This document shows, piece by piece, positions 5,898 through 63,749 of a DNA stretch of 64,000 bases. The notes under the pieces are model-generated. The model did not search any database. It was given only the letters and a program-made list of their open reading frames with translations, and was not told where the DNA came from. A program made the translations under genes and the position numbers. The stretch's first letter is position 1, and every line of letters begins with the position of its first letter. The stretch is from Sipunculus nudus (lineage: Eukaryota; Annelida; Sipuncula; Golfingiida; Sipunculidae): the NCBI GenBank assembly GCA_026874595.1, contig CM049319.1:57916917-57980916 (forward strand). The letters are read 5' to 3'.

Positions 5898-7497
5898 AAA
5901 CAAGGGACCCATGGGTCACGGCGCTCAGCTGTTAAAAAAACATGATTTGGGAAAGAGGCACATGCTGGTTTTGTGTGGTAATAAATATAAGCTTTATTAT
6001 GAGTTGTTGGTGTTTAGCTTATGTATGATTTTGATGGTATCTTTGGAGACAGGGAAGAGGATTGATTTCATTTATTTTATTAACAAATGAAGTGCTATTG
6101 TCACACAGATTTTGACTTGGCCATATAACTTATAAGCAGCACATATAATAAAAGAGTTTAACTATTTATTAAAATTTAATAACAAATATTTTGCCAATAT
6201 AATTTTTAATTAAAAAAAATAATAAGAAAATCAAATGATTTTTTTAAATAAAATATAACTGAAATGATTATTGAAATAATATTATAGAATATATTCATGA
6301 ATGCATTCATGAATACATTTTGAAAGTATCTGCACTCGTATTCAAATACTTTCATTTTTACCTGAATTCCCATTCTTATGCAATAAAATTTTTTAATGCA
6401 GTACATATTCATATTCGTATTCAAATACATTTGCAAAGCATTCGCACCATATCTAGTATTTATTCAGTTTTAGCAAAACAATGATGTTGAGAATCCAGAA
6501 TATACAAAATTCACAAATTTAAATAATGATCATAAGTACCTGGTTTTATGCCTTTTATTTATATTAAAAAAATAAATGTAATATATTCACTTTGGACTAC
6601 TTTCACATCAATCTACACACTAGACACAGTAGGAATCTAGATTAAAATTATCAACTGCATCTAATTCTATCATTAATTTCCTTCATATGATCCCTAATGA
6701 TTAGTAATGAATAATATGATTTATTTTTTTTATCATTAAAATTTAACTGAAAAATACCATTGGTGACTGCATGGTGTTATTTGGAATAACATTGACATTG
6801 ACATTCTATCCATCCATACAAGATTCTTACATCATTAGTAACTGCAAGTTAATTTTCTGTTACTCATCAACTAACAAATTCCTTTTCTATTAATTTTTAT
6901 TTAATTGTTATAAAAAAACCAATACAAAATTATTAATTTATTGTTTATTGTTATGTTGTTTTTCAAAACAACTACCAGATGAGTTGGGTTGGACACCTGG
7001 ATCAACTGTGGCTGGGCATTAGCTGCCTGGCTGCCCCAGTGTATGCTTCGCTCAAGCATGCATAATCTGATGAAAGGTCAACAAGGTCAACATACAGGTG
7101 ACTGAAGAGGGACTGGATTGAGCCTGGGTCTGAAACGGTCTCATAAAAACATTAATAAAAGCTACAACATTTGGCCAATTTTTTTCAGCTTTCTAAAATA
7201 CAAAGATGAAATCCTAATATGTGCATGATATGAAAATTATATCAACAGTGCTCTCAGGAAACAAACGTGCCATGGTCAAAGTTGGGCAAAATTTAAGGTA
7301 CTAATTTTATATTTATACTAATAACTTATAAAATTTGAAAAATTCAGAACTAATTTTTGGTATTCAATTGGATCTTGATTAAATAATGTTACATCCCTGA
7401 CAAAAAATCTCTAGCTTCAGCAATCCTCTTGTTAAGGGAGTAAATATATTTCTTTATTTTTTAAAAAGTGCATTATGTTGGGCCCATAATTTAAAAC

Positions 7498-7625
7498 AAT
7501 TACGCAATACTGACATCATTTCTGGCATTTGCATAGCAAATGTATAGAAAAATATGTATATTATATATGATCAAAGTCAGATCAGTGGTTTTGATATTAG
7601 GCAGTCTTACAGTGTAACAATGGGT
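7498..7625 (+). repeat. Left copy of 128-bp direct repeat flanking the LINE
   Basis: Starting at AATTACGCAATACTGACATC and ending in CAATGGG just before the poly-T, it matches 13774-13901 with roughly eight mismatches by eye. It is a candidate unusually long target-site duplication. Confidence 0.65.
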
Positions 7626-7876
7626 TTTTTTTTTTTTTGTTTTTTTTTTATTAATTGAACATATAATACAGATACAGTAACAAACAGTACACATGATTTT
7701 ACATCATCATACAATGTACATAAAACAAAAACATGTATACATGTATACATTCACACTAAGGTTGATACACACTAACCGGATGTACATAAACAACAAATAC
7801 AGACAGGGTACATTATAAACATATTGAAATAATCATGGTGAATATTTTTTGTTTTTGCTTTAAGATAGGTATTATT

Positions 7877-8452
7877 TCAGCTATGGTTTTCTTTAAAATA
7901 TTTATTTTTAAATTCTTTCCATTTCTGGTCGTGTATTACTATTTTACCTTTTGCTCTAGCTATATTTTCTTCTATTTTATAGATCTGTAATACGTAGTTT
8001 GTATATATACAGAACGTAGGAATTTTTTCTTTACACTTACATGTGTATACGAAATGTTTAAAGAGTAGTATTAAAATATCTAGAAGGGTGTCGTTGGTAG
8101 TGTTCATAATTATAAAGGTTTTTCTGAAATTGCTCATGTGTATATCTAAGCCTATGTTTCTCAACCATTTTTTTAAATCAGATATTAAGCTGTATGTTAT
8201 TTCACAGTGATAAAATATATGAGAATATGTCTCTCTATCTTTTTTGCAAAATGTGCACAATTCTGTGTCACTTTTTTTCAATTTATAGAGGAAGGGATTC
8301 AAAGGTAGAATCCTATGTAGTAGTTTAAACTGAAAGGTTCTTAGCTTCTCAGAAATGGTAATACTAGTTATATTTTTGAAGGCTTTAAGTATGATTTCAT
8401 TGTTTTGTAATTCTAACTCTCTGGTCCACTTTTCCATTGATTTGACTGGCAA
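7877..8452 (-). pseudogene. LINE ORF2 C-terminal zinc-finger region (zf-RVT type)
   Basis: The 191-codon ORF contains FKLLHRILP followed by CTFCKKDRETYSHIFYHC, a CX2C...HX4C finger seen at the C-terminus of L1/Tx1-like reverse transcriptases. It lies in a different frame from the RT body at 8475-10073, which shows a further frameshift near 8455-8475. The ORF is followed by a short 3' UTR and the A-rich tail. Confidence 0.85.
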
Positions 8453-8474
8453 AATGTAGAGGTTATTTATTAAA

Positions 8475-10073
8475 TCACTGTAGATGAAACGAAGTATTTT
8501 TCATTCTTAAAATTTTTTCAACCCTATGTTCTTGCAGTTGGACCTTTGAGTTATTCTTTATATCTTTTTTCCAAGTTCCTGGGACTGCATGCAGCAATCC
8601 TGTGTAGTGCATAAAGTTAATAGTGACTTTGTATCTGCTTATTAATTCTTCAAAGGTCAGAAATGTTACATTGTTTCCCACATTTTTAGTAATGTCTGAA
8701 ACTGTTTTGACCCCTGCCTTATATAATTTATTATAAAATATTACTGTGTTATTTATTTTTATGTGAGAGTTAAACCACAAAGTTTGTGACTGAATTTCAT
8801 TTTTAGAAACCGTCTTAGTGTAATTGTAATTGCACCAGGATTGGAGTACTTCTTTCCAGAATGGATCACAAGAGACATTCAAATCTTTTAAGTCGTTCAC
8901 TCTTAAGTTACATTTAAATATATATGTACCTAGATTTTTTAATTGTACATTAATAATCTGTCTCCAACCATTTTCAGTAGAGCCACTAAGAAAACGTTTA
9001 ACCCATGAGATTTTTAAAGATTGTAACTTAGCTTGGAGATTAATCATATTTAACCCTCCTTTATCTCTCGGTGCTATTAAAGTGTTTCTCTTAACCTTAT
9101 CTGATTGGTTATTCCATATAAATTTAAATATTAATCTTTCCACTTCTTTAATATAAGTTTGTGATGGCTTAGGAAGTACAAGGAATAAATATATGAGTTG
9201 TGAAATAATACATGTTTTCACAATGGTTATCCTTCCAGACAAGGACATAATTCTGTGTCTCCAGATATTTATAATAGTTTTAATTTTACTAAGGATTTCT
9301 TTATAGTTAGTTTCTATCATTTTTTTCCATTCCGGATGAATTGAGATTCCTAAAATTTTAACTGGATTAGTACACCAACACAGACCTAAGTCTTTCAATT
9401 GTGCCTGATTATAAAAATAGTTTGTTATCGGCATTATTGCTGTTTTTTCTATGTTAACTTTAAGACCTGATATTTGTTGAAACCTTTTAAATACATCCAA
9501 GACTTCTTTGATTGACATTGGTCCTCCTGTAAGAGTTAAAACGGTGTCATCTGCATACTGAATAATTTTGTGTTCCTTCTGATCAACTATTACTCCTTTT
9601 ATTTTACAGTTATTCCTTATTTCATTTGCTAATATTTCTGCTGCCAATATGATTAAGTATGGTGATAGGGGACATCCCTGTCTAACACCTCTTGTTACTG
9701 AGAAGAAATCAGTGGCCCATCCTCTGTTCAGAACACAGCTAAAAATATTATGATATAATATCTTAATCCAATTTCGAAGGATTGGTCCAAAATTAAATGC
9801 TTGAAGAACATCTTGAATATAAGGCCATTCTAACTGATCAAATGCTTTTTCAAAATCAACTGATAACAGGTAACCTCCTATCTTTTTATTTTTTAAATGA
9901 GAGATAATGCTTATAATTTTTATTATATTTTCTCCGATATATCGATTTTTCATGAAACCAGTTTGATCTGAATGTATTATTGAAGGTAAGACTAATTTAA
10001 GTTTATTGGCTAAAGTTTTTGCTAATATTTTATAATCGGTATTAAGAAGAGAAAGGGGGCGCCAGTTTTTCAA
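8475..10073 (-). pseudogene. LINE reverse transcriptase, main domain
   Basis: This is a 532-codon open stretch. It starts with KNWRPLSLLNTDYKILAK, includes GVRQGCPLSPYL and has the catalytic YADD box (QYADDTVLTL, residues ~173-182). The thumb region follows (SGLKVNIEKT and VKILGISI). The reverse transcriptase copies element RNA at a nicked chromosomal target. The motif spelling matches L1/Tx1-type elements more than RTE, CR1 or Jockey; this placement is by eye. The stop at 8475 comes before the expected C-terminal finger domain, which is found in another frame downstream. Confidence 0.9.
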
Positions 10074-10095
10074 GAGAAGTTGGTCCTTACCTCTC

Positions 10096-10335
10096 TTAGG
10101 AAATGAGACATATCATCCCTTGACGCATAGTGAGTGGAAGGCAGCCTTTATTATATGAGTTACTTATATCATTTATAAAATATTCTTTTAAATCAGACCA
10201 AAATGTTTTATAAAATTCTACTGGGAACCCATCTGGGCCTGGAGTCTTATTAAGGGCCATTGAATCAATAGTGTTTTTAAATTCTTCAATTTTAAATTCT
10301 TCTTCACAAAAAGTCCTTTCCTCTTCATTGAGCAT
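10096..10335 (-). pseudogene. LINE reverse transcriptase, N-terminal segment
   Basis: The 79-codon ORF carries the RT block LNKTPGPDGFPVEFYK (about residues 29-44), the conserved start of LINE reverse transcriptase. The coding sense continues in another frame from 10073, so a frameshift lies between about 10075 and 10110. Confidence 0.85.
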
Positions 10336-10981
10336 TTTATTATTTTCTAGTAAAAAGAAATCCCTATTAACATTATCAGACTTGGCTTGTGCTGTATATA
10401 AATTTGTATAAAATTGTAGTTCCTCATTTGATATCTCTTTGGGTTCTATTATTATTCTACCTTGTTTATCTTTGAGTTTTATTATGGATTTTCGATTAAA
10501 GTTTCTTTTTTCTAAGTTAAGAAAAATATTTAGTTGGTTTGTCCCCCTCTGTATACCATGTGGTTCTACATCTTATAATTGCTCCTCTTGTTTTCTCTTC
10601 AACAAACTCTTTATGGTTATTAACTGCTACTTCCCAATTTTCTTTATCTTAAGTATCACCTGTTGTGTTATATATAGTCTGTAGTTGATGAATTAACCTT
10701 TCTGAATGTTTAATTTGTTGTGTTTGTACTTTTTTCTTGTAGGCTGCATATGCTATTGTTTCTCCTCTTATCTGACATTTTAAGTATCCCACATTAATGA
10801 TGGATTTGTTCCTTTATTATTGTTAATAGTGTCTTTTATACACTCTTTTATTTTGGAGATATAACTTTGATCCTTTAATAATGAACAATTCAATTTCCAG
10901 AAACCTGGTCCATTCTTATGTTCTGTTATTGCCATATTTATTTTAATCAAAGAGTGGTCACTTTTATACCCAGCTTCAATA
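10336..10981 (-). pseudogene. Decayed linker between LINE endonuclease and reverse transcriptase
   Basis: This stretch should encode the ORF2 segment between endonuclease and RT. It contains stops and frame changes and no long minus-strand ORF. The plus-strand ORF here is an antisense shadow. Confidence 0.6.
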
Positions 10982-11644
10982 TCAGATTGGTTTTATACAA
11001 CTTTTTAGGCTATCACTAATTAGAAAGAAGTCAAGTCTGCAAAATACTGGTTTAGGAAGATATCTATGCCATGTATATTCTAAATGGTTGGGGTGTTGTA
11101 ATCTCCAGATATCAGATAACTGTTCTAATTCTATCCAATGGCTTATCACTTGTCTAGATTTCATGTGACTTTTAGAATGCCCGCCCTTTTTATCGAAGTT
11201 TAGATTAAGAGTTAAATTAAAATCTCCACCTATTATTAAACTGCCTGTACAATTGGTGCTGATAACAATAAGTTCCTCAAAGAAGCAGGGTTCATCCTTA
11301 TTTGGTGCATATATGTTAACAAAGGAGATCTCATGTTGACCTATTATTGTATTAATAATTAAATATCTCCCATGATTATCCCGTCTTACAGCTTTTATCT
11401 CTAAGGCAGTTTTGTTTTTAATTAATGTACATACCCCTCTTGCTTGGTTAGTGCCATGGCTAAAATATATCTGATGTCCCCATTCTGATTTCCATTTATT
11501 TTCACATTTTGAAGTACTATGAGTCTCTTGTAAAAATATAATATGACATTCTTTCTTGTTTAACCAATGAAAAACTTCTCTTCTTTTAGAATAACTGGCC
11601 AGTCCTCTGGCATTCAATGATACTATCTGACAAGTATTAGACAT
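10982..11644 (-). pseudogene. LINE ORF2 apurinic-like endonuclease domain
   Basis: The 220-codon ORF is an exonuclease-endonuclease-phosphatase (EEP) domain at the N-terminus of a LINE ORF2. Visible motifs are the metal-binding Asn in SLNARGL (residues ~8-14), the catalytic Glu in FLQETH (~37-42), NIYAPN (~111-116) and the GGDFNL motif (~140-145). The domain nicks target DNA to prime reverse transcription. The frame stops before the final Ser-Asp-His motif, so the end of the domain is lost or out of frame. The Met at 11644 fits the usual start of L1/Tx1-type ORF2 proteins. Confidence 0.9.
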
Positions 11645-12059
11645 ATATGTACTATGTTAATTATTTTTTTGACAAAAGATTTAAAGATATATATTAATGC
11701 AATTTTGGTCATTAATGTACCCACATTACATATAATAGCTATGACAAACATACAGAAAATAACAAAAGTTACTAAGTCACTTAGATAACAGATATGTGAC
11801 GCGATAACATGCTTCCAAGTTATGATATGTAGTAAGTTCTGATGCATCTTGCAACAGAAAGGATACCTATCAAATGCTGACTACTTATCAGCGGAGCTCT
11901 TTATTATGTGTATAGTAGTTAAAAAAAACTTACTTTCTACAGTAAACAAGGTAATCTAACAAAATTTTAAGTTATAAACAAATATATTCTATCCTATATG
12001 GCAGATTATATGAACAAACCTAATCTATGCAGCAGTCCTATTAAGATGCATAATATGTC

Positions 12060-12760
12060 ATGTCTTGTGACCTCTAACCTAATTAATATATCGGTACATG
12101 CATTTTGTTGAGACTTTAGATCAAGTGAAATTTGTATTGATAAATATTTATGAGTTAAATAGAATAAATCTACCATATTTTGGCGTCATCATGGTGCCAT
12201 CAAATTCTGTTGACCTCTGACCTCATTAAATGAACATGGATTTAAGGGAAGGTGTTATATTGGTTCAATTAGAGTTTTCACTAAGGTCTACAGTATTCCA
12301 GGTAATTTATTGCAATTACACCTCTGGCCTCATTAATTGTGTATGAATTTTTTGCCTATAGTTGACTTGGGCATGATAATCTGTTGGTGAAAGGTTATGG
12401 AATTTGTGAAGTTCTATCAAATCAAGTAAATTATTACTGTGATATTACAAGATAAACAGGCCCTAGAAGTAGCCTAGTTTCCTCTGACCTAATTAAATAT
12501 ACAAACTTTCTGAGAATTTTATTCAGAAACTATATTGGTTAACGTTTATAACTTGCATGAAAATCAATCAGATATTTGGTGAGGCATCTCAGTGCCACCG
12601 AAGGCTAATGACTTCTGCTCTCATTATGTGCATGGATTTTCATTAATTTTTTTCACGTTCCGATTTAGTTATAATGATGGCCTCACAAAGTAGCTTGGTG
12701 TCCTCCGACCCCACTAGGAATTAGTTTACTACACCCATAATCATACCTGGGCAAGAAAAA
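12060..12760. repeat. Degenerate tandem monomers with TGACCTCTGACCT-like cores
   Basis: Blocks beginning with variants of GACCTCTGACCTCATTAA recur at about 12068, 12219, 12321, 12480, 12608 and 12700, spaced about 90-160 bp. A single similar block lies at about 39645. They occupy the region expected to be the LINE 5' UTR. The best copy (12219) is a perfect direct repeat of the nuclear-receptor half-site with 1-base spacing. Confidence 0.5.
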
Positions 12761-13243
12761 CTGTTGGTAAAAAGATATGATGATTTTTGTAAAAATCTGT
12801 CAGATCCCTATAAAATTATCACTGTAACACTAAAATTAACAGTAGAACTGACTATGGGTACACTATGGGTGTATATAAAGTAATTTATAAGTAAATATTT
12901 ATGTTTACACTCTTTTTAGGTGCTTTTATAAAATGTTTGCATCATTTGCCCAGTACGAATATTAATATTCCATAATTATCATGTTTGTATTGTAACTTAC
13001 AGCATGAGACTTATCTCCAGAAATAATTAAAAAAAAAGAAAAAAAAAAGCTTAGTCTTAGTTAAATTGTCTCAACCTGTTGAAACTGTAACTCCTCATCC
13101 TGAATGGTAATCTTATTGTAAAGCTTAGACTAAAATACATATATTAATAATTCTGATAAGCTGAATCACAAGTTGTAGATTTGTAATATGGAATATCAAT
13201 ATGGTAGTGATACAGGTTATCAATTTATTAAATATTATTTCTA

Positions 13244-13270
13244 ATTTTTTTTTTTTTGGGGGGGGGGGAA
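13244..13270. repeat. Poly-T/poly-G homopolymer junction
   Basis: A run of T directly followed by a run of G. No function is inferred; the length may be unreliable in assembly. Confidence 0.8.
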
Positions 13271-13773
13271 TTTTGTAAAGTTGAGTGTAAATTGAGCTAT
13301 GAATTATAATTTTAACTGTAATGCACTATAGTATATAACTGGGATACATTAAACTATATACGCAATATTTAAACATATATATACGTACATACATAAAGGT
13401 TCAAGGTTGACCAGAATCTCTAATACAATATTATATAGTATAATCGTGGAAATTACTGAAAGAGAAGCTAAGCATTCTCATCTAATTTTAACATATCATC
13501 TGATATTATATCGTCTCATCTAATATTAACAATAATTTTAACATACCATGCATAAAAAAGGCATACAAATTCAATATCCCTTACTTGATACCAAAGATGG
13601 TTGTGTATCTAAATTCATTTGTAAAAAAATCCATTTAAATCCATCTCAGATTTATCTCAAAATTAGCATAAATGTATATATAGCACAATCATCTCCATAA
13701 GGAAAAATACTTTTCAATTCTTAGGGATTGGATACATGTATCTATCTCTCTATTAATAAAATTTGGCTCAGCA

Positions 13774-13901
13774 AATTACACGATACTGACATCATTTCTG
13801 GCATATGCATAGCGAATGTATAGAAAAATTTGTATATTATATATTATCAAAGTCAGATCAGTGGTTTTGATATTAGGCAATCTTAAAGTGTAACAATGGG
13901 T
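13774..13901 (+). repeat. Right copy of 128-bp direct repeat flanking the LINE
   Basis: Matches 7498-7625 and then continues into the rest of the host element, as the uninterrupted copy does in reverse near 61280-61420. The sequence to its left (before 13774) is unrelated to the host element, which marks the LINE 5' boundary. Confidence 0.65.
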
Positions 13902-14824
13902 TTTTAATGGAAAATGAAGTTTTTCATTAATATTTCGAAGGAATTAAGTCCTAGTGATCAAATTCTTGACATGGTAGGGGATTTTGGAGACATCTAACTG
14001 TATGCCAAATTTAAGGAACTTAGAGCTGAAGCTGGGGAGCTGAGCTCTAGCAAACTGCATAACACTAGCTTGATGTAAACAATATGTGACATGGTGCTTG
14101 AAAACTTGAATAAAATCTACAGTTTTTGATCAACTGGTTTCAAATTTTTGGTGTAAACAGACATAATGCTAAAAAAACATGCTGTGAAAATTAACTCCAC
14201 AGTACTTACAGGGAAAAAACGTGCCATGGTCAAACTTGGGCAAAGTTTAAGGTACCAATTTTATATTTTTGCCAAAATTTAAAAAATTTTTACAGATTTT
14301 GATCTAATTTTTGGTATACATTTAAATTTTGATAAATTAAAGTTGTATTACTGAAAATAGTCCCTACCTTTAACACTTTTGGTCTTAAGTGACCAAATAT
14401 CTTTCCTGATTTTTTTACAAAGTCCATTATGTTTGGGCCCACAACTTTTTTTAAATTAAATTATACTGACTTAATTTCTGGCATGTACATAGGAACTATA
14501 TTTAGGAATATTTATTGTAAATATGAAGAAAACCAGATGAGTGGTTTTGATATTAGGCAGGCCTGAAGTGTGAAAATAGATTTCTAATAAAAAATTTAGG
14601 TTTTTCCTTAATATCTCGAAGGAACGAAGTCCTATTGACCCAATTTTCGGCATGGTAAGAGATTTTTGGGGACATCTAACTGTATGGCGAATCTCAGATT
14701 TGTAGGTCCAATGGTGTCGAAACGTGCCAGTCTTACGGACGGACATCCGGACGGACGGACGACGGACAATGGACCACGACTATAGCTCAGATTACTTATA
14801 AGTTATAGTCAGCTGAGCTAAAAA

Positions 14825-16607: not shown

Positions 16608-18136
16608 TTTTTAGCTCAGCTGACTGTAAGTCATCTGAGCTTTAGCTATCAGTCTTTGTCCGTCGCCCGTCCGGGCGTCCGGTCGTCTGCCCGTTAACAG
16701 GGCTCAAATCGTAACCGCACATCTTTAAAGGTCTCAAAAACAGAGAAAAAAAATCACAAAAAACAGGTGGCGCCACCAGTCTGCAGAAACTGATGAAACG
16801 TTCCATGTTCAATATCCATGCAAAGAATCATGATGACCAATGTATTAGTTGTTGAGATACTTGAGCTTTTGTATTAAATTTTCAATTATTCTCGGGGATA
16901 CTTCAGAGCCCCATAGCTCTAAGGTTTTGGGTAACAGAGACCTAATTTTAGCTCTCCAAGGAGACTTTTCATTGGCCTCTCTGCATGTCATGAGAGAAGA
17001 TTCTAGGTCCAGTCGTTACGATTTGTGCCCTGTTATCAGATGACCGCATCTTTTAAGGTATCAAAAATAGAGAGAGAAAATGGTAAAATATCGAAAAAAT
17101 ACAGGTGGCGCCAACAGTCAGCAGAAACTGATGAAACACTCCATGATCAATATCCATGCAAAGAATCATGGTGATCAATGCATTAGTTGTTCAGATATTT
17201 GCGTTTTTGTATCAAATTTCTATTATTCTGAGGGGGGGGGGGATACTTCAGAGCCCCATAGCTTTGAGGTTTTGGGTAACAGAGACCAATTTTCGGTTTC
17301 CAAGGAGACTTAATTTTGGCCTCTCTGCATGTCAAGAAAAAAGAGTCTAGGTCCAGTCGTTACGATTTGTGCCCTGTTATCAGATGACCGCATCTTTTAA
17401 GGTATCAAAAAAAGAGAGAGAAAATTGTAAAATATCGAAAAAATACAGTTGGCGCCAACAGTCTGCAGAAACTGATGAAACACTCCATGATCAATATCCA
17501 TGCAAAGAATCATGGTGATCAATGCTTTAGTTGTTCAGATATTTGAGTTTTTGTATCAAATTTCCATTATTCTGGGGGGGGGGGGGGGTACTTCAGAGCC
17601 CAATAGCTTATAGAATCTGGGTAACAGAGACCTAATTCCAGGTTTCCAAGGAGACTTTTCATGGGCCTCCCCACATGTAAAGATAGAAGATTCTAGGTGC
17701 AGTCGTTATGATTTGTGCCCTGTTAACAGATGACCCCATCTTTTAAGGTCTCAAAAATAGAGAAAAAATCGTAAAAAATCGAAAAAATACAGGTGGCGCC
17801 ATCAGCCTGCAGAAATTGATGAAACACTCCATGATCAATATCTATGTAAAGAATCATTGTGATCAATGCATTAGTTGTTCAGATACTTGAGCTTTTGTGT
17901 CAAATTTTCCATTTTTCTGTGGGGTACTTTGGAGCCTCATAGCTCGAAGAATATTGGTAACAGAGACTTAATTCAGGGTGTTCAAGGAGATTTTTCATGG
18001 ACCTCTCTGGATGTAACATTAGAAGATTCCAGGTCCAGCGGTTACGATTTGTTCCCTGTTAACGTACGGACGGACAGACGACGGAAAAAGAGTGATCGCT
18101 ACAGCTCAGATGACTTTCAGTCAGCTGAGCTAAAAA
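16608..18136. mobile_element. Foldback element with terminal hairpins enclosing degenerate satellite monomers
   Basis: The left end is TTTTTTAGCTCAGCTGACT then AGTCATCTGAGCT followed by TTGTCCGTCG. The right end is the inverse complement (CGACGG, then AGCTCAGATGACT and AGTCAGCTGAGCT). The terminal inverted repeats are about 60 bp, and each arm holds its own hairpin. Inside are four diverged monomers, each with a GGTGGCGCCACC variant (16766, about 17105, 17450, 17798). They are the reverse complement of the 336-bp satellite at 54.9-59.3 kb. G-runs at 17228 and 17573 lie in the same monomer position. No protein is encoded. Confidence 0.8.
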
Positions 18137-20304: not shown

Positions 20305-21440
20305 TTTCAAGTGTCAACCGGCCATGTTAGCATACACCATGCTGACAAACTCCATGTCAAGTGTTGTTTACATCAAGCCAACCTAGTTGTGCAACCTTCA
20401 CCTGTTTTATGTAACCCGCTCCAGGCAGCTTGCCTTGGCTCAGCTTGGCCACTACTGGCAGGCTTCCCCTCTGCCCTGCATCCCCCCCCCCCCCCCGATG
20501 GTGCATAAACTAGATGTTTTATTTTATTTTTTGTATTTGATTCATTCTTATTCTAGGCTATGCTACATTTTTAGAATTTGTATTGTACAACCAGGGTTAC
20601 AATGATTTATGTGCACATTAAATTGTGTCCACAAAGTGGTGTATTGCTATGAAAGTGTGGATGTTCATCAGATAAGGAATTTCTTACTTCGGAAGGGAAA
20701 AAACTTCACCAGGGTTGAAACTGAATATTAATTCCAGTAATAAATTTATAGCTGTAATAAGCACAATGATATTGTTTGTCCCTCATTCAACCAACAGTGT
20801 GAATACTTTATTTGAAAAGATGTTTTTATTTGATTAAATTTACTGAAACTTTTATTTCGGTGAATAAAATTAAGCATGTACTGAACACTCCAATGTACAA
20901 AACTTTTTAATAGTGAGTAAAGGAATGATCTTGAAGATTCCATGTTGTGGCATTATTTTCTTTTGAATTCACATTTGTGATTTAAAAATAATAAAATATA
21001 TGTTTATGCATTACGTGACCCGATGTGAGGTGAACTCTAGATAAAATAATGATTGCAACTTAGAAATCTAATATTTTAACTTATATTTTCAGATTTTTTA
21101 TAAAAATTTTTAAAACTCGAAGTAAAATAAACGGATCTGATGAAAACTATAAATGGAAAAGTGGACATGCTGAAAAAAATAGGCTTTAAAATAAACTTAA
21201 ATGCATTACTCACTTGAAATTGAAATAAAGGAACTAGTCCCTTCTGTCCACTTGCCTGTCCATCTGTAATTTTTTTATATGCAACACAGTATATCAAAAC
21301 TTTTACTGTTTTTCTTCAAGACAGTCTTGTCAGAGTATTAGTTTTGGAGTCATATATTTAGAACTTTACTATAACCAAGTAGGAGGGCCCCTTTCGTCTT
21401 AGCTTCTCATAAGCAAATACATATACATATATATACGTAT
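20305..21440 (+). mobile_element. Partial copy of palindrome-family element body
   Basis: The sequence parallels 61780-62840 and, reversed, 28990-30070. It includes the block GCAGCTTGCCTTGGCTCAGC near 20428, a poly-C tract (20472-20487) and the AACCAAGTAGGAGGGCCC segment near 21375. Neither terminal palindrome was found, so both ends are truncated or diverged. Confidence 0.7.
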
Positions 21441-24935: not shown

Positions 24936-24948
24936 GTCTTCTTTATTA

Positions 24949-52900: not shown

Positions 52901-55900
52901 CCAAGGTGTACCAGGACCTTGCAAAATCCAGAAATTCATTATATATGACACGTGATCGCAAACATCGCCCTTGTTAACGTACGAAGAAACGCAATGATCT
53001 GGATCAACGTGGTATCTTAAGACGTTAATTAGCTAAGTGACAGGGAGCGACCTGCATGCATCACTGCACTTGCCTGCCGCGCACAGATAGGAGATGTGAT
53101 CGTTTGATACGCCTGACCGATTACAGGCTCTTGGCCTTGTTGATCACCGTGTTGGGGTCTGATATGATATTAACTGCGATCTGGTATAAATGCAAAGGGT
53201 TCCAAGCATGACAATAAACGGGATTATGACAATATTCCATGATATTAAACGGTCAGATTTACCATTGTTTATATAGGAAATGGTTTGGGATTTCAGATTT
53301 ATGTGACAATAATCGGGATTTTCTATTAACCGATATGACACAAAGTGGGCTTGACTGTACTTAAATTCCTCTGCAAGTTCCCCAACAGTAAACTTACTGG
53401 AATTATAAGGTGTTACTGATTATAATTCAACACAAGTATGTTCTCATATTAAGCTGTCATTCATTGATATCAGAGTTAATTATAGAGAAAACATTTCATA
53501 CAAAAAAAATTAAGATTTTGAGTATCCTGATTAAAGTATCACTGTTAATTTTAGTATATTTGTCTCCAAATGTTGTTATTTTATGGCCTTATCTAATTCC
53601 GGAAGATATTTAAGTTACCATTTGTACTAGATTATTACTAACTTTCAGTAATGTTTCTCAGGTGAATGTCACATTACGAAAACCAGGTGCTAAATTGGAA
53701 CATCAAGGCATAAAAATAGAATTCATCGGCCAAATAGGTAAGTCACGGTATTTGCAAGTTTAACTGTCTATATATGTAAACAGTTTGTTTTGATTCTAAA
53801 AATTAAGATGTATATGAGAATTCTGAGTATGAGATAATTTGTCATACAACAAGTTTAGAATTAATCTTGAACGAGATGCTGCACCAATGTTAACCTTCCT
53901 TTTTTATATGCCTGTCTATGATGCAACATATTATGGTATACCTACAAACTGTTTGTCCGTCTGTCCATCCCTTTAACATTTTTAATAAAAAGACAACCGC
54001 AGTACATCTTGACCTAAGTTAAAGCTCTGTTCTTGGTTATTCTTCTCTCACTAATAGCAGTTTAGGATATTTTTTTAAAAAGATAGGCATCTTGAGTTCA
54101 CAATTACTGAATTTGTATAACACGTGAGGTTTTGTAACAAACAAGTTAGTCACAATAAGTTCACATCTGTCAATATATGACACTGTTGTTTCAGAGTTAT
54201 ATTATGACCGAGGTAATCACCATGAATTCACATCCCTGGTAAAGGAGCTGGCAAGGCCTGGAGACATTACACAAAACACCAGCTATGAGTTTGAGTTTAT
54301 CCAGGTTGAAAAGCCTTATGAATCATATACTGGAGCCAATGTAAGGTTACGGTGAGTCTGGCATGAAATAATCAGTCATTCTGTGATGAGTAATTTGATG
54401 CTTTGCAGCCTGACAATCGAAGGATCAGTTCAAATGAAACATAATATTGATATTGGTGGCTCTGAAAAGAATCAGTGCTATTATCAGAGGCACTGAGAAA
54501 AGTCAATAAATTATTGATTTCTTACAATAGTCAAAATTTCTTGCAAATTTCATAAATGTTTAAAGCATATATGTGAAGTATTTTTTTAGCTCAGCTGACT
54601 ATAAGTCATCTGAGCTATAGTCATGGTCATTGTCCGTCATCTGTCTGTCCATCCGTCTGTTCATCCGTCCGTCCGTAGATGTGGCATGTTTTGAAACCGT
54701 ACGACCTAGGAATCCAAAATTCGGCATAATGTTAGATGTCCCCAAGATCTCCTATCAAGCCGAAAACTTGGTCTTTGCGACTTTGTTCCTTTAAGAAATT
54801 TAGAAAAAACCTCAATTTTTAGCTCAGCTGACTGAAAGTCATCTGAGCTATAGCGATCACTCTTTGTCCGTCGTCCGTCTGTCCGTCTGTCAGTCCGTCC
54901 GTCTGTCTGTCTGTCCGTCCGTTAACCAGGCACAAATCGTAACCGCTGGACCTAGAACCTTGTAACTTGGGATTCTGAGAGGTCCATAAAAAATCTCCTT
55001 GGAAACCAGAAATTAGGTCTCTGTTACCCATATCCTTTGAGCTATGGGGCCCCAAAGTACCCCCCAGAATAGTAAAAAATTTCATACAAAAATTTCAATA
55101 TCTCAATAACTACATCACTGATGGTCTTCATTTTTGGCATACATATTGATCATGAGATGTTCGATCAGTTCCTGCAGACTGGTGGCGCCACCTGTACTGT
55201 TTGATTTTTTACGATTTTTTCCTCTATTTTTGAGACCTTTGAGGATGCTGTCATCTGTTAGCGTGGCACAAATCCTAACGACTGGACCTAGAATCTTCAT
55301 TTTCCACACACTGAGAGACCTATGAAAAGTCTCCATGGAAACCAGAAATTAGGTCTCTGTTACCCATATCCTTCGAGCTATGGGGCCCAAAATTCCCCAC
55401 CAGAATAGTCAGAAATTTCATACAAAAACTTCAATATCTCATTAACTACATCACTGATGGTCATGATTTTCGACATACATATTGATCATGAGATGTTTCA
55501 TCAGTTTGTGCAGACTGGTGGCGCCACCTGTATTTTTCAATGTTCACGAATTGTTTTCTCCATTTTTAAGACCTTTAAGGATGTAGTTATCTGTCAACAG
55601 GGTACAAATCGTAACGACTGGACCTAGAATCTTTGTTCTTGACACACAGGGAGACCCATGATAAGTCTCCATGGAAACCAGAAATTAGGTCTCTGTTACC
55701 CATATCCTTTGAGCTATGGGGCCCCAAAATACCACCCAGAATAGTAAAAAATTTCATACAAAAACTTCAATATCTCAATAACTACATCACTGATGGTCTT
55801 CATTTTTGGCATACATATTGATCATGAGATGTTAGATCAGTTCCTGCAGACTGGTGGCGCCACCTGTACTGTTTGATTTTTTACGATTTTTTTCCTCCAT

Positions 55901-58900
55901 TTTTGAGACCTTTGAGGATGCTGTCATCTGTTAGCGTGGCACAAATCGTAACGACTGGACCTAGAATCTTCATTTTCGACACACTGAGAGACCTATGAAA
56001 AGTCTCCATGGAAACCAGAAATTAGGTCTCTGTTACCCATATCCTTCGAGCTATGGGGCCCAAAATTACCCCCCAAAAATAGTCAAAAATTTCATACAAA
56101 AACTTCAATATCTCATTAACTACATCACTGATGGTCATGATTTTCGACCTACATATTGATCATGAGATGTTTCATCAGTTTGTGCAGACTGGTGGTGCCA
56201 CCTGTATTTTTCAATGTTCACGAATTGTTTTCTCCATTTTTGAGACCTTTAAGGATGTAGTTATCTGTCAACAGGGTACAAATCGTAACGACTGGACCTA
56301 GAATCTTTGTTCTTGACACACAGGGAGACCCATGATAAGTCTCCATGGAAACCAGAAATTAGGTCTCTGTTACCCATATACTTTGAGCTATGGGGCCCCA
56401 AAATACCACCCAGAATAGTAAAAAATTTCATACAAAAACTTCAATATCTCAATAACTACATCACTGATGGTCTTCATTTTTGGCATACATATTGATCATG
56501 AGATGTTAGATCAGTTCCTGCAGACTGGTGGCGCCACCTGTACTGTTTGATTTTTTACGATTTTTTCCTCTATTTTTGAGACCTTTGAGGATGCTGTCAT
56601 CTGTTAGCGTGGCACAAATCCTAACGACTGGACCTAGAATCTTCATTTTCCACACACTGAGAGACCTATGAAAAGTCTCCATGGAAACCAGAAATTAGGT
56701 CTCTGTTACCCATATCCTTCGAGCTATGGGGCCCAAAATTCCCCACCAGAATAGTCAGAAATTTCATACAAAAACTTCAATATCTCATTAACTACATCAC
56801 TGATGGTCATGATTTTCGACATACATATTGATCATGAGATGTTTCATCAGTTTGTGCAGACTGGTGGCGCCACCTGTATTTTTCAATGTTCACGAATTGT
56901 TTTCTCCATTTTTAAGACCTTTAAGGATGTAGTTATCTGTCAACAGGGTACAAATCGTAACGACTGGACCTAGAATCTTTGTTCTTGACACACAGGGAGA
57001 CCCATGATAAGTCTCCATGGAAACCAGAAATTAGGTCTCTGTTACCCATATCCTTTGAGCTATGGGGCCCCAAAATACCACCCAGAATAGTAAAAAATTT
57101 CATACAAAAACTTCAATATCTCAATAACTACATCACTGATGGTCTTCATTTTTGGCATACATATTGATCATGAGATGTTAGATCAGTTCCTGCAGACTGG
57201 TGGCGCCACCTGTACTGTTTGATTTTTTACGATTTTTTTCCTCTATTTTTGAGACCTTTGAGGATGCTGTCATCTGTTAGCGTGGCACAAATCGTAACGA
57301 CTGGACCTAGAATCTTCATTTTCGACACACTGAGAGACCTATGAAAAGTCTCCATGGAAACCAGAAATTAGGTCTCTGTTACCCATATCCTTTGAGCTAT
57401 GGGGCCCCAAAATACCACCCAGAATAGTCAAAAATTTCATACAAAAACTTCAATATCTCATTAACTACATCACTGATGGTCATGATTTTCGACCTACATA
57501 TTGATCATGAGATGTTTCATCAGTTTGTGCAGACTGGTGGTGCCACCTGTATTTTTCAATGTTCACGAATTGTTTTCTCCATTTTTGAGACCTTTAAGGA
57601 TGTAGTTATCTGTCAACAGGGTACAAATCGTAACGACTGGACCTAGAATCTTTGTTCTTGACACACAGGGAGACCCATGATAAGTCTCCATGGAAACCAG
57701 AAATTAGGTCTCTGTTACCCATATACTTTGAGCTATGGGGCCCCAAAATACCACCCAGAATAGTAAAAAATTTCATACAAAAACTTCAATATCTCAATAA
57801 CTACATCACTGATGGTCTTCATTTTTGGCATACATATTGATCATGAGATGTTAGATCAGTTCCTGCAGACTGGTGGCGCCACCTGTACTGTTTGATTTTT
57901 TACGATTTTTTTCCTCTATTTTTGAGACCTTTGAGGATGCTGTCATCTGTTAGCGTGGCACAAATCCTAACGACTGGACCTAGAATCTTCATTTTCCACA
58001 CACTGAGAGACCTATGAAAAGTCTCCATGGAAACCAGAAATTAGGTCTCTGTTACCCATATCCTTCGAGCTATGGGGCCCAAAATTACCCCCCAGAATAG
58101 TCAAAAATTTCATACAAAAACTTCAATATCTCATTAACTACATCACTGATGGTCATGATTTTTGACATACATATTGATCATGAGATGTTTCATCAGTTTG
58201 TGCAGACTGGTGGCGCCACCTGTATTTTTCAATGTTCACGAATTGTTTTCTCCATTTTTGAGACCTTTAAGGATGTAGTTATCTGTCAACAGGGTACAAA
58301 TCGTAACGACTGGACCTAGAATCTTCGTTCTTGACACACAGGGAGACCCATGATAAGTCTCCATGGAAACCTGAAATTTGGTCTCTGTTACCCATATCCT
58401 TTGAGCTATGGCACTCCAAAGTACAGCTCAGAATAATGGAAAATTTGATACAAAAGCTAAAGTAACTGAACAACTAATGCAGAGATAACCATAATTGTTT
58501 GCATGGATATTGATCATGGAGTGTTTCATAAGTTTCTGCAGACTGGTGGCACCACCTGTATTTGTTCGTTTTTTTTTACGAAATTTTTCTGTATTTTTGA
58601 GACCTTTAAAGATATGTACATCTGTTAACAGGGCACAAATCATAAAAACTGGACCAAGAATCTTCATTCTTGACACACAGGGAGACCCATGAAAAGTCTC
58701 CATCGAAACTTGAAATTAGGTCTCTGTTACCCATATTCTTTAAGCTGTATGGGTCCAAAATACCCCCCCCCCCCCAGAATAATGGAAAATTTGATACAAA
58801 TCTGCAGTATTTCAATAACTACAACACTGATGGTCATGATTTTCAACATACATATTGATCATGAGCTGTTTCATCAGTTTCTGCAGACTGGGTGTGCCAC

Positions 58901-61900
58901 CTCTATTTTTTTTTCAAATTTTTCCGAATTTTTTTCTTTTTTTTGAGACCTTTAAAAATGTGGTTATCTTTCAACAGGGTACAAATCACAACAACTGGAC
59001 CTAGAATCTTCATTCTTGTCATGCAAGGAGGCCCATCAAAGGTGCCTGTGGAAACTTGAAATTAGGTCTCTGTTACCCATATCCTTCAAGCTATAGGACT
59101 CCGAAGTATCCCTCAGAATAATGGACAATTTAATACAAAAACTGAAGTATCTGAACAACTAATGCAGAGATCACCATGATTTTTTGCATGGATATTGACC
59201 ATTAAGTGTTTTTATTAGTTTCTTCAGACTGGTGGAGCCACCTGTATTTTTGTATCCACCAAAACGAAGTTTTGCGGATACTATATTTTTGACCAAGTTC
59301 CTCCGCCGCAGGGGCGTTCGTTTCCAGAGAGCTCCTCGGAGACTAATGGACCTATTTTTCCCAAACTTACACCTATTATCGGGTCACATGTGAACTGGTG
59401 CCTAACCAATTTGCATTGACCTCTGACCTTTCCTCCCTATCCAGTGTCCATTTGTGGGTCTGTTTCCACTCATAAACCCTCATATCTCGGGAACCGTTTG
59501 ACCGATCAGGAAATAAAATTGATACAAATGTAGCCCTTGGATTGCTTTATAACATACACAAAAAATGGTGGCGCCACCTGTAACCATGTTTGCACAGTGT
59601 CCATCTGTTCATCTGCCTTGGGTTAAAATCACTCATATCTCTGCAGTGAATTGACTAATTCACCTGAAATTCGTCATGTGAATACATCCAGGATAGCTTT
59701 CTTGATTTTATGACAGGTGGCGCCACCTACATTCACGTTCACGCTGATGACATCCAAGCTTATATCTCGGGAACCGTTTGACCGATCAGGAAATAAAATT
59801 TATACAAATGTAGCCCTTTGATAGCTCTGTAACATACACAAAAAATGGTGGTGCCACCTGTAACAATGTTTGCACAGTGTCTGTCTGTTAGTCTGCCGTG
59901 GCCTAAAATTACTCATTTCTCTGTAGTGGTTCGACATAACTGCCTAAAATTTTGCAGGTTTATACATCGTGGACAGCTTTCTTGATTTTATGACAGGTGG
60001 CGCCACCTACATTCTAGTTAACGCTGGACACATCCAAGCTCATATCTCAGGAACCATTTGACCGATTGGGCCAAAATTGTGCATGTGTTTAGATCACATA
60101 GGTCTTTATCATACACAAAACTGGAGGGGTTACCTGCAAAGATTTTTGCACAGTGTTTGTCTGTTTGTCTGCCATGGGCAAAAATCGCTCATATACATGT
60201 AGTGGTTTGACTTTTCTGCCTAAAATTTTGCAGGTGTATACAACTTGGACAGCTTTCTGGATTTGTGGTAGGTGGCACAACCTACATACACATTTAGGCT
60301 GCAGACATCCATGCTAATATGCAACATACCTCACTCTATTTCCCCTTGCCACTCAATCCATGCCTCACTATCCGATTTTGGCAGATACATGTAGTCACTT
60401 GTCGGTTACCCGTATTCTAGTTTAAAAAGTTTACACATTTTTCTCTATTTTTGAGATATATAAATACAGACAAAATCTTGGCCTGTTGGTTAATCTGTTT
60501 GATGCTTCAGTTGAATTGGTATATACTACCATTCTGATGATAAAATTTCCTTTTGCGAATCTCTTCCCAGTCAGCTGAGCGTCATGACCCATGGGTCACT
60601 TGTTTATTAAAAAACCTATTTTCACACTTCAGGACTGCCTAAAATCAAAACCACTCATCTGTTTCTCATCATAATTACCATAAATAATCCTCTATATAGT
60701 TCCTATGTACATTCCAGAAATTAGGTCTGTATTTTATAATTTAAAAAAGTTATGGGCCCAAACATAATGCATTTTGTAAATAATCAGGAAAGAAATTTGA
60801 TCACTTACCACAAAACTTGTTAAAGCTAAGCACTTTTTTCCAGTAATATTACTTTTATTAATCAAAATTAAATTGTATACCCAAAATTAGATCAAAATCT
60901 TTTAAATTTTTTAAAATATTAGCAAAAATAAAAAATTGGTACCTTAAATTTTGCCCAAATTTGACCATGGCACGTTTTTTCCTGTAACTGCTGTTTATTT
61001 AATTTCAAATCATGTTTTTGTTAGCATTTCAACTGTTAACACCAAAAATTTGAAACCAGTTGATCAAAAACTGTAGATTTTATTCAGGTTTTCAAGCATC
61101 ATGTCACATATTGTTTTCATCAAGCTAGTGTTATGCAGTTTGCTAGAGCTCAGCTCCCAAGCTTCATCTCTAAGTTCCTTAAATTTGGCATACAGTTAGA
61201 TGTCTCCAAAATCCCCTATCATGCCAAGAATTTGGTCACTAGGACTTAATTCCTTCGAGATATTAATGTAAAACTTCATTTTTCCATTAAAAACCCATTG
61301 TTACACTTCAAGACTGCGTAATATCAAAACCACTGGTCTGACTTTGATCATATATAATATACATATTTTTCTATACATTCGCTATGCACATGCCAGAAAT
61401 GATGTCAGTATTGCGTATTTTTTTTAAGTTATGGGCCTAAACATAATGCACTTTTAAAAAAATCAAGAAATGTATTTACTTACCTAAGATGAGAATTGCT
61501 GAAGCTGGAGACTTTTTTTCAGGAATATAACTTTATTTAATCAAGATTCAATTGTTTACCCAAAATTAGATCTGAATTTTGCAAATTTTTCAAGTTATTA
61601 GCATAAATAAAAAATCAGTACCTTAAATTTTGTCCAACTTTGGCAATGGCACTTTTTTTCCCTGTAAGCACTGTTGATTTAATTTTCACAGCATATATAC
61701 ATAAGGATTTAATCTTTTAAAATCTGAAATTGCAAAGGAAATGATTGAAAAGAGTAGCTTTAATTCAAGTTTTCATACACAATGTCAAGTGTTGTTTACA
61801 TCTAGCCCACCTAGTAGTACAGCCTTCACTTGCATAATGTAACCCACCCCAGGCAGCTTGCCTTGGCTCAGCTTGGCCACTACTAGCAGGCTTCCCCTCT

Positions 61901-63749
61901 GCCCCCCCCCCTAGGTGGTGCATTAACTAGATGAATGTTTTAATTTTCTGTATTTCATTTTATTCTTGGCTATGCAATGCTACATTTTAGATTTTGTATT
62001 TACCACCAGGGCTACAATGATTAAAGTGCACATTTAATTGTGTCCACGAAGTGGTGTATTGCTATGAAAGTGTGGATGTTCATCAGTTAAGTAATTCCTT
62101 ACTTGAGAAGAGTAAAAACTTCACCAGGTGTGAAATTGACTATTAAATCCAGTAATAAATTACAGCTTAGATTGTAATTAGCATAATGATATTGTTTGTC
62201 CCTCATTCAACCAACAGTGTGTATACTTTATTTTAAAAGATGTTTTTATTTTACCAAATTTACTGAATCTTTTATTTTATTTAGGTGAATAAGATTAAGC
62301 TTGTACTGAAAACTCCAATGTGCAAAACTTTTCAATAGTGATTCAAGGAATAATCTTGTAGATGCCATGTTGTGGCATTATTTTCTTTTATATTCAGTTT
62401 AAACATTTGTGATTTAAAAATAATAAAAATGTATGTGTATGCATAATATGACCCAATATGAGCTACACTCTGGATATATAATGATTGCAACTTAGAATTC
62501 TAACATTTTAACTTATATTTTCAGTGTTTTTTAATACAAATTTATAAAACTTGTAAATAAAAAAAAAAAATCAGATAAAAACTATTTTAATGGAAAAAGT
62601 GGATATGCATAAATAATAGGCTTATATATAAACTTAAATGCATTATTCACTTGAAAGTGAAATAAAGGTATTAGTCCATTCTGTCCACTGGCCTGTACAT
62701 CTGTATATTTTTTCATATGCATCACAGTCTCTCAAAACTTTTACTGTTTTTCTTCATGACAGTCTTATCAGAGTATTAGTTTGCAATCATATGTTTAGAA
62801 CTTTACTATAACCAAGTAGGAGGGCCTCTTTCCTCTTTGCTTCTCATATTCTTATATAAATATAAAAAAACATTAAAATAGAATATTTTGCATTTGCAAA
62901 AATTTCAAACTTAAGCTGAGTGCCATGACCCATGGGTCCCTTGTTTTACTTTTTGCTAAATTTCAAGCCAAACTAAAGTAACTCGCAACAGTAAAATGAG
63001 CCCAGTCTTTAATCCACTTTTATAAGGACTTGTACTCGGAATGGAGGGTCCCAGACTCATGACTTTTACTATGTGGACTTAAGAAATTAGACAGAGTCCA
63101 GTAGAAAAGAAAACTCTTGTTAAAGATTAATACAATATAAAGATTGTGTATATGGGTGAACCAATAAGAGAAATTTACCGGAAAAAAAACTGTACAGACC
63201 AAGTGTTAGCTCTGCACCGGGGACCAAAGGTAATAAAACATCCTAGTGAAGGCCACTTGTAAACTAACAAACTTCACATGTTTGTCTCAAATATCCTTTT
63301 TGAATTTCTAGCAATAAGGAGATTTGTATTGGATTTGGACTTGGACTCATTCCTAGTGACTTGGACTCTAAGAAGATGGACTTGGATTTGAACCTAAGGG
63401 ACTCATGCTCTGAGTCTGGCTCGAGTGGCCTGGAGTCGGACTCGCACTCGGACTAGGATGATGTGGACTTAACTACCTCACTGAAACATTTCCTGCGTAG
63501 ATTGGTATTGTAATTATGTTCGTGATGGATGTTGTGGCCTTTGACCACCTTCTTGTTGATACAATGTTTCTTTATTTGATGCAGGTATTTCTTGAGGGTG
63601 ACAGTCGTCAAGAGGATCAGTGATGTCGTAAAAGAACAGGACCTAATCGTGCACACTTTGTCCCACTATCCTGACTTGAACAACAGCATAAAAATGGAAG
63701 TCGGCATAGAAGACTGCCTACACATAGAGTTTGAATACAATAAATCCAA
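43924..63749 (+). CDS. VPS26: VPS26, retromer subunit, exons 1-5 (gene continues beyond window)
   Basis: Joined coding exons 43924-43926, 51893-52036, 53662-53737, 54195-54351 and 63585-63749 give 181 codons plus two bases, about 55% of a typical ~330-residue VPS26. The protein is near-identical to animal VPS26: SFFGFGQSADIDIVLDG (2-18), then HQGIKIEFIGQIELYYDRG (63-81), KPYESYTGANVRLRYFLRVT around 114-133, and NNSIKMEVGIEDCLHIEFEY at the window end. VPS26 has an arrestin-like two-lobe fold; with VPS35 and VPS29 it forms retromer, which retrieves cargo from endosomes to the Golgi and plasma membrane. The visible part covers the N-terminal lobe and the hinge; the main VPS35-binding lobe lies outside. 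All junctions are GT/AG and phase-consistent. Intron 1 (8 kb) and intron 4 (9.2 kb) are full of repeats. Confidence 0.97.
44472..44588 (+). other. Candidate in-frame cassette exon in VPS26 intron 1
   Basis: A strong pyrimidine-rich acceptor (CTTATCCCACAG) and a donor (ACA|GTGAGA) bracket 117 bases, exactly 39 codons open in phase 0, the phase of VPS26 intron 1. The translation is basic, with KNKRKR-like character (IPQNKRKRNS) and a Gly-rich end. Inclusion would add a 39-residue extension after the VPS26 Met. I do not recognise the peptide, and it could be a cryptic or non-functional exon. Confidence 0.35.
44957..45395. repeat. Degenerate minisatellite, ~63-72 bp unit
   Basis: Units start TGAAATATTTACAAATG (variants near 44957, 45028, 45170, 45240, 45311, 45374) and share TACATGTTATACCTGGTGTC. 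AT-rich, in VPS26 intron 1. Confidence 0.6.
45396..47415. other. VPS26 intron 1, no recognised element
   Basis: AT-rich non-coding DNA with a (TA/TGTA)n microsatellite near 45545-45580. The 93-codon plus-strand ORF at 46040 has no recognisable domain. Confidence 0.4.
47416..47840. mobile_element. hAT-like MITE with GTACAGGT-rich ends
   Basis: The termini CAGGGTTGGGGCCAGGTAC and GTACCTGGCCCCAACCCTG are perfect inverse complements. Subterminal GGTACAGGTACAGGTAC repeats occur at both ends. The flanks CCATTAAC (47408) and CTATCAAC (47841) match at 6 of 8 positions, fitting an old 8-bp hAT duplication. No transposase in 425 bp. Confidence 0.85.
47841..48500. other. VPS26 intron 1, unassigned
   Basis: A 75-codon minus-strand ORF (47844-48071) has a CPTC motif and a few aromatic residues but no recognisable family; it is not called as a gene. 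Confidence 0.35.
48501..49080 (+). mobile_element. Repeat element beginning with GCGAACCTGTGAGC end and GTCCGTCC tract
   Basis: From ATTAGCGAACCTGTGAGCTT the sequence runs into GCGCAGCGTCGTCCGTCCGTC, the same end design as other elements here. It includes a GGTGGCGCCACC at 48985-48996. The right end is not clear. No ORF. Confidence 0.5.
49400..50575 (+). mobile_element. Hairpin-ended element B, copy 2
   Basis: Alternating units of about 134 and 149 bp are each centred on GGTGGCGCCACC variants (49604, ~49752, ~49880, ~50029, ~50163, ~50312), with repeated phrases CATATCTCGGGAACCGTTTG and CACTCATATCTCAGCAGTGG. The right end CTGCGGATACACAGTGG...CCATATTCTGGTTTT matches the other copies. The left hairpin is missing or truncated. 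In VPS26 intron 1. Confidence 0.75.
50576..51892. other. End of VPS26 intron 1, unassigned
   Basis: No recognised element. GACTC/GGACT-type words around 51690-51790 resemble the tract at 63330-63460. The 98-codon minus ORF at 50636 is not recognised. Confidence 0.35.
51893..52036 (+). CDS. VPS26: VPS26 exon 2
   Basis: 144 bp, residues 2-49, from SFFGFG to ETVSGK. The acceptor is GTTACAG|AGT and the donor AAG|GTCAGA. Phase 0 at both ends. Confidence 0.97.
52249..53357. mobile_element. pogo/Tigger-like non-autonomous element (MITE), copy 3
   Basis: Its ends CAGTCAAGCCCGCTTATTGT and the inverse of CAGTCAAGCCCACTTTGTG are flanked by TA on both sides. It is 1109 bp and aligns along its whole length with 31134-32206. 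No transposase ORF. It fills most of VPS26 intron 2. Confidence 0.88.
53662..53737 (+). CDS. VPS26: VPS26 exon 3
   Basis: 76 bp, residues 50-74 plus one base (VNVTLRKPGAKLEHQGIKI and FIGQI). The acceptor is TTTCTCAG|GTG and the donor ATAG|GTAAGT. Confidence 0.97.
54195..54351 (+). CDS. VPS26: VPS26 exon 4
   Basis: 157 bp, residues 75-126 plus two bases (ELYYDRGNHHEF to TGANVRL). The acceptor is TTTCAG|AGT and the donor ACG|GTGAGT. Confidence 0.97.
54950..59258. repeat. 336-bp satellite array with dimer and tetramer higher-order structure
   Basis: Thirteen monomers are marked by GGTGGCGCCACC variants at 55181, 55517, 55853, 56191, 56527, 56863, 57199, 57536, 57872, 58209, 58545, 58890 and 59231. 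Two monomer types alternate (TCAGTTCCTGCAGACTGG and TCAGTTTGTGCAGACTGG), giving a ~673-bp dimer. Odd and even dimers differ at shared diagnostic sites (for example CAAATCCTAACG versus CAAATCGTAACG), giving a ~1346-bp period. The last three monomers are diverged, as at an array edge. Identical 62-codon ORFs at 55633, 56307, 56979 and 57652 are repeat by-products. Confidence 0.92.
59259..60425 (+). mobile_element. Hairpin-ended element B, copy 3, inserted in the satellite
   Basis: The left hairpin has GTATCCACCAAAACGAAG then TTTTGCGGATAC. The right end is TTTTGGCAGATACATG...CGTATTCTAGTTT. Internal GGTGGCGCCACC variants lie at 59567, ~59716, ~59849 and ~59998. Satellite sequence breaks at CACCTGTATTTTT and resumes with TTTTTCTCTATTTTTGAGA at ~60438, so B landed inside a monomer. 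Confidence 0.8.
62947..63584. other. End of VPS26 intron 4 with GGACTC-rich patch
   Basis: 63330-63460 repeats TTGGACTC/GGACTCG words in a degenerate manner. No gene is seen. Confidence 0.45.
63585..63749 (+). CDS. VPS26: VPS26 exon 5
   Basis: 165 bp, completing Arg127 and encoding residues 128-181 plus two bases (YFLRVTVVKRISD to EFEYNKS). The acceptor is GATGCAG|GTAT and the donor CAA|GTGAGT. The coding sequence continues beyond the window. Confidence 0.97.

Follow-up and report, generated by a model that had tools for sequence, protein, structure and literature searches.

The 64,000-nucleotide stretch of Sipunculus nudus DNA analyzed here (GenBank assembly GCA_026874595.1, contig CM049319.1, positions 57,916,917 to 57,980,916 of the forward strand; hereafter, the window, with positions counted from its first letter) contains several elements that carry the same two ends and lie nested within one another, which raises the question of what kind of transposon they are and which proteins mobilize them. 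We consider it very probable that they are nested members of a very abundant family of HINEs, i.e., non-autonomous Helentrons, mobilized by autonomous Helentrons residing in the same genome. The evidence comes from the structure of the ends, the insertion sites, the autonomous relatives, and a composite element that runs past one of its own 3′ ends.

Ends and insertion sites of the window elements

The 5′ end reads TTTTT-AGCTCAGCTGACT..AGTCATCTGAGCT followed by (GTCY)n, thus combining a subterminal inverted repeat (subTIR; AGCTCAGCTGACT), its complementary inverted repeat (AGTCATCTGAGCT), and a GTCY microsatellite. The 3′ end reads CAGCTGAGC..GACCCATGGGTC-CYTTGTT, in which a 3′ subTIR (CAGCTGAGC) precedes a palindrome (GACCCATGGGTC) and CYTTGTT, an arrangement absent at the bypassed end at 28879. 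A preliminary description of the window had assigned the 5′ and 3′ ends the other way round. The polarity is fixed because the Rep/helicase open reading frame (ORF) of the autonomous relatives is oriented from the AGCTCAGCTGACT end toward the GACCCATGGGTC end; moreover, published HINEs have subTIR, inverted repeat, and microsatellite at the 5′ end and subTIR plus palindrome at the 3′ end (PMC7492417, PMC4067079; here and below, statements on cited work refer to the consulted portions of each report). Therefore, the earlier polarity was rejected, and the supposed 3′ hairpin is actually the 5′ subTIR plus its inverted repeat.

The sequences behind these labels held up well. The 3′-end motif AAACAAGGGACCCATGGGTC is present in all six copies that had been described, with 0 to 1 mismatches (plus strand at 5898, 27236, 28279, and 28879; minus strand at 60605 and 62946), and the largest count across 100 shuffles was 0; the coordinates given earlier were right to within a base, with one-base shifts at two places. 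For AGTCAGCTGAGCT, the hairpin motif, 14 window matches at no more than one mismatch were found versus 0.01 expected, among them hairpin ends at 16613 and 18131 that had not been listed before; the hairpin near 14824 is imperfect. Across the 1.43-Gb genome, the 5′ pattern AGCTCAGCTGACTNNAAGTCATCTGAGCT has 24,024 exact matches, the CCCTTG-type 3′ pattern GACCCATGGGTCCCTTGTTT has 7,440, and the CACTTG-type 3′ end with its subterminal repeat has 6,842, with 0 matches for the reversed-pattern controls. These totals count end sequences rather than whole elements and miss diverged ends, and the copy numbers from genome searches given below are to be read as "at least." The canonical Helitron hallmarks (5′ TC, 3′ CTRR, and insertion between A and T) were not seen at the ends or the empty site examined. 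An exact-string literature search with four end strings found one of them in three papers, none of which concerns transposons, judging by titles.

As for insertion sites, the joined host flanks of a copy, on contig C16, of the composite element described below matched 13 uninterrupted places among the matches listed, with 95 to 100% identity across 149 of the 150 bases. The target, six consecutive T, is neither duplicated nor lost; weaker matches (73 to 85%) in the same search belong to the same host repeat. Within the window, two nested copies (28279-30771 and 54821-60605) were compared with the uninterrupted body of element 5898-14819 at 14283 and 14590, and no target duplication was seen, within the ambiguity of T-run length. 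The T-rich insertion without duplication that had been described earlier therefore held at the three sites compared (the 13 paralogous sites of one copy and the two comparisons within the window). As a separate observation, one nested-insertion site recurs: a second 5′ end lies 232 to 258 bp downstream of the first, with the HINE body entered at the same T tract (..CCTCAATTTTT), at 54588/54821 of the window and at loci L044, L045, and L046, which were picked for the close spacing of their 5′ ends and are not a frequency sample.

Autonomous Helentrons with the same ends

A genome search with Pfam PF14214 gave 143 Rep matches, and five loci with long ORFs, drawn from different score groups, were fetched. 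At two of these five (C17:35630192 and C7:71189229), the GACCCATGGGTC end lies in sense orientation 1.0 to 1.4 kb downstream of the long Rep ORF, and the final 34 bases of the C7 element recur unchanged at window positions 5898-5931 and 28279-28312. When the terminal 300 bp of the C17-type element were searched against the genome, the seven best places were 92 to 100% identical, and five of them (on C17, C9, C1, C10, and C5) sit 4.7 to 4.8 kb past a same-sense Rep match. For the C7-type terminus, the three best places (99 to 100%; C7 twice and C3) all lie approximately 4 kb past such a match. The remaining listed places match the terminal 300 bp in part or with an insertion, and they are probably non-autonomous derivatives.

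On C17, C10, and C3, a 5′ end was located ahead of the Rep gene, with 14.9, 15.7, and 28.9 kb, respectively, between the 5′ motif and the 3′ end, spans that may include nested insertions; homology between C17 and C10 begins at the T run directly before AGCTCAGCTGACT. The Rep/helicase relative with common ends that the preliminary description had proposed to look for thus exists, sharing both ends with the HINEs on C17, C10, and C3 and the 3′ end on C7. Together with the structure of the ends and the empty sites, it bears out the earlier classification as Helentron-type non-autonomous elements. In both the C17 and C10 Helentrons, we also observed a second 5′-end sequence approximately 0.7 to 1.1 kb inside the first.

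The C17 ORF encodes 2,342 amino acids, with Herpes_teg_N (to which we presumptively ascribe a cysteine-protease role), DUF6570, Helitron_like_N, and PIF1 above cut-off. A C-terminal fusion to an apurinic/apyrimidinic endonuclease, as in autonomous Helentrons, was found in two proteins: the C-terminal 300 amino acids of C17, taken alone, pass the Exo_endo_phos cut-off (24.9 versus 24.5), and a sister ORF, C13:9109249, from a locus without these ends, passes that of Exo_endo_phos_2 (35.2 versus 27.4). Motif 2 of Rep contains RGSPH in five of the five proteins compared and reads FYRVEFQQRGSPHIH in those of C17, C7, and C13:9109249, and the published Helentron signature of this motif is an S between G and P (PMC4067079); Rep is thus joined to a PIF1-like helicase and has a Helentron-type motif 2. 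Across 1,500 aligned positions, the C17 protein shares 60% identity with that of C7.

These two protein lineages have matching HINEs in the window. Lineage A pairs GCGATCACTC after the 5′ inverted repeat with GGGTCACTTG at the 3′ end, as seen in the C17 Helentron and in the inner HINE at 54821-60605 (plus strand), which encloses satellites (54929-59251 and 59482-60320) and shares satellite sequence as well as both end variants with C17. The C10 Helentron has an A-type 5′ end and a 3′ end 98% identical to that of C17. In lineage B, GTCRTGGTC goes together with GGGTCCCTTG, as seen in the window HINEs 5898-14819 (minus strand; 3′ end at 5898, 5′ end at 14819), 28279-30771, and 54588-62946 and in five further copies of the composite; the C3 Helentron has a B-type 5′ end and a 3′ end 99% identical to that of C7 (for C10 and C3, the 3′ ends were assigned by identity, not letter by letter). 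The B-type HINE 54588-62946 (plus strand) is the outer element interrupted by 54821-60605, and its two parts (54588-54820 and 60606-62946) sum to 2,574 bp, in agreement with the cleaned length of about 2.57 kb noted earlier. No mixed A/B pair was found among 12 elements examined, six of which are copies of one composite and hence not independent (loci L017 and L018, each with extra ends, were left out of the pairing), so the ends appear to be inherited together, as the preliminary description had supposed. The window HINEs therefore match both autonomous lineages by end variant.

A composite that runs past its 3′ end

The element at 28279-30771 (minus strand) lies within the outer HINE 27236-32724 (minus strand; 3′ end at 27236, 5′ end at 32724). 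It starts from the 5′ end at 30771, passes a 3′ end at 28879, continues for approximately 600 bp, and stops at the outer 3′ end at 28279; the extension shares 90% identity with the 3′ portion of element 5898-14819. Position 28879 had been taken as an element end. The end motif is indeed present there, but it belongs to a bypassed inner 3′ end (28879-28898, minus strand) that has lost the subterminal repeat GCTCAGCTG and whose palindrome has changed to GACCCAAGGGTC; it is not the outer end in use.

A 201-bp probe over the composite junction matched with 98 to 100% identity at all 40 places scored among the matches listed, the window included, and the exact junction pattern occurs 467 times in the genome. 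In addition to the window copy, five more were read, each on a different contig and chosen among the seven best rows of the other 39 places. All six start at the same 5′ T run, finish at the same outer 3′ end, and have different flanks. At the inner 3′ end, the subTIR is absent in six of six, and the palindrome reads GACCCAAGGGTC in five and keeps GACCCATGGGTC in one. The subTIR is implicated because the copy with the intact inner palindrome has the same outer boundaries as the others.

The simplest reading of the composite is a 3′-end bypass, and loss of the subTIR may have caused it. Such bypass has been proposed for HINEs (PMC4067079) and shown for the Helitron Helraiser upon deletion of its hairpin (PMC4778049). 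We tentatively suggest, at somewhat less than an even chance, that the Helentron 3′ subTIR, beyond the palindrome alone, belongs to the termination signal, and that a HINE losing it through natural mutation ran on to the next sense 3′ end, the 2.5-kb product becoming a successful subfamily. It is rather unlikely, yet worth weighing, that the composite arose from nesting followed by deletion or recombination instead of read-through and later spread as a unit: its sequence reveals the product and not the event, and a nested insertion must have come earlier, given the junction with a 5898-type body. However, the 600-bp extension begins at the inner 3′ end and goes on to the next 3′ end in sense orientation, and the subTIR is missing from the inner end in all six copies read, both as expected of a read-through product. 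Whatever its origin, the composite now moves as a unit with its inner 3′ end unused.

Mobilization, distribution, and known relatives

In the mechanism that we propose, a Helentron protein (N-terminal cysteine-protease-like domain, HUH Rep, PIF1 helicase, and C-terminal endonuclease) would recognize the 5′ subTIR and the 3′ subTIR/palindrome, a single strand would be taken up, starting at the 5′ end and finishing at the 3′ palindrome, and this strand would be inserted into T tracts without duplication of the target. Both the rolling-circle, single-strand character of the process and the mobilization of these HINEs by these particular proteins are what we infer. What the sequences show directly is that the ends are shared, that Rep has a fixed sense relative to them, that the two protein lineages have HINEs to match, that insertion into T tracts leaves the target unduplicated at the sites compared, that elements are nested, and that a composite with a disused 3′ end has been amplified.

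Several observations weigh against mobilization by Helentrons. Regarding the proteins, the endonuclease stays under the curated cut-off when the whole C17 protein is scored (20.5 versus 24.5), the C7 copy has a broken reading frame, its endonuclease surviving as remnants in two frames, and an RPA-like gene appeared only as a sub-threshold match (a 159-amino-acid C7 frame to Ssb-like_OB, E 0.0011, below cut-off). Regarding the loci, three of the five fetched (C8:80139053, C13:66180677, and C13:9109249) lack these ends in the 16 to 17 kb read of each, and two of the seven best C17-type places (C8:69024647 and C17:37211172) have no listed Rep match nearby. The C7 copy extends past the 27.7 kb fetched, with its 5′ end beyond that stretch, and the boundary comparison between autonomous copies covers the 5′ side only. 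Finally, the autonomous copies are known from their sequence, and their intactness and activity are presumptive.

Canonical Helitrons or endonuclease-free Helitron2-type elements are very unlikely to be the mobilizers in place of Helentrons. All these groups share Helitron-like Rep and PIF1 domains, and both ends of Helitron2 have been described as bearing asymmetric inverted repeats and palindromes (PMC4067079); nevertheless, the C-terminal endonuclease domain, the Helentron-type Rep motif FYRVEFQQRGSPHIH, insertion into T runs rather than between A and T, and the lack of 5′ TC and 3′ CTRR argue for Helentrons. A cut-and-paste DDE transposon or miniature inverted-repeat family with unusual ends, which the short inverted repeats close to both ends might suggest, can practically be dismissed, given the asymmetric ends, the absence of target duplication at the sites compared (an outcome that would have counted for it), and the Rep/helicase/endonuclease-coding relatives with the same ends (no search aimed at DDE families was made).

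Elsewhere in the window, two facing 5′ ends form an inverted 5′-5′ structure (16613-18131) around a satellite array (16758-18061), with no 3′ end between or beside them in a motif search of the window. Element 5898-14819 is enlarged by a nested insertion at 7877-11656 (minus strand) with ORFs containing a YADD-type reverse transcriptase motif and an endonuclease-like frame, which we take to be LINE-like. A 357-amino-acid minus-strand ORF at 1040-2113 with a CCHC-like zinc knuckle resembles a retroelement Gag, motif assignments that are presumptive.

On contig C1, HINE ends are dense between 0.06 and 3.2 Mb and nearly all on one strand: 53 of the first 57 3′ ends and 59 of the first 60 5′ ends are minus, and after the minus block 10 of 10 5′ ends at 1.237 to 1.469 Mb are plus. 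Orientation was counted over 210 places pooled from genome listings, leaving out the C1 end-motif listings, two tandem C16 places, 32 of 72 rows (second parts) of the C7-type search, and 2 of 41 rows of the C17-type search. A rule of telomere-pointing orientation was rejected, since 11 of 21 places within 3 Mb of a contig end point outward. Of 193 pairs of neighboring places, 114 lie on the same strand (shuffle p 0.0056), and runs tests on C1 beyond 3.2 Mb were not significant (p 0.062; p 0.068, 0.39 after thinning to 50 kb). Segmental duplication behind the C1 block was not supported, as the seven loci read have dissimilar flanks on the upstream side of the first 5′ end. A strand-asymmetric satellite is a partial lead, seen in one of four pieces: at C1:600001-606000 (L051), the plus strand has 57 A-tracts of five or more versus 0 T-tracts, and the three other pieces are near balance.

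Among known systems, Cg_HINE of the Pacific oyster (PMC7492417) is alike in its 5′ subTIR, inverted repeat, and GTCY-type microsatellite, its 3′ subTIR and palindrome, its satellite-like central repeats exchanged between related flanks, and its T-rich insertion without duplication. The likeness is one of architecture, not of sequence identity, and autonomous partners could not be related to the elements there, whereas here two lineages carry the same ends. A later oyster genome paper, in the part consulted, only discusses HINE-like features. Helentron-Mo/HINE-Mo of a predatory mite and Drosophila DINE-1 (PMC4067079) are likewise autonomous/non-autonomous pairs with common ends, one protein with Rep, PIF1 helicase, and endonuclease, and T-rich targets without duplication; compared with them, by description and not by sequence, the present Helentrons have N-terminal Herpes_teg_N and DUF6570 matches, and an RPA gene was not clearly found. 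In the reconstructed bat Helitron Helraiser (PMC4778049), loss of the 3′ terminator similarly raises bypass and capture of downstream DNA; that is a canonical Helitron tested in cells, whereas the composite occurs in nature, is of Helentron type, and lacks the 3′ subTIR in each of the six copies read. Architecture, satellite cargo, and T-tract insertion were thus already known from Cg_HINE and HINE-Mo/DINE-1, and what is new is the matched autonomous partners and the amplified end-bypass composite; judging by titles and the openings of abstracts, mainly in the open literature, we found no report of a matched bivalve autonomous partner or of a natural Helentron bypass composite.

Overall, HINEs carry a good deal of satellite-like sequence in some invertebrates. 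The family described here, with its thousands of exact ends, its two matching Helentron lineages, and its clean empty sites, makes the question of their partners directly testable, and the bypass composite offers a natural experiment on what brings the transposition of a Helentron to a halt.

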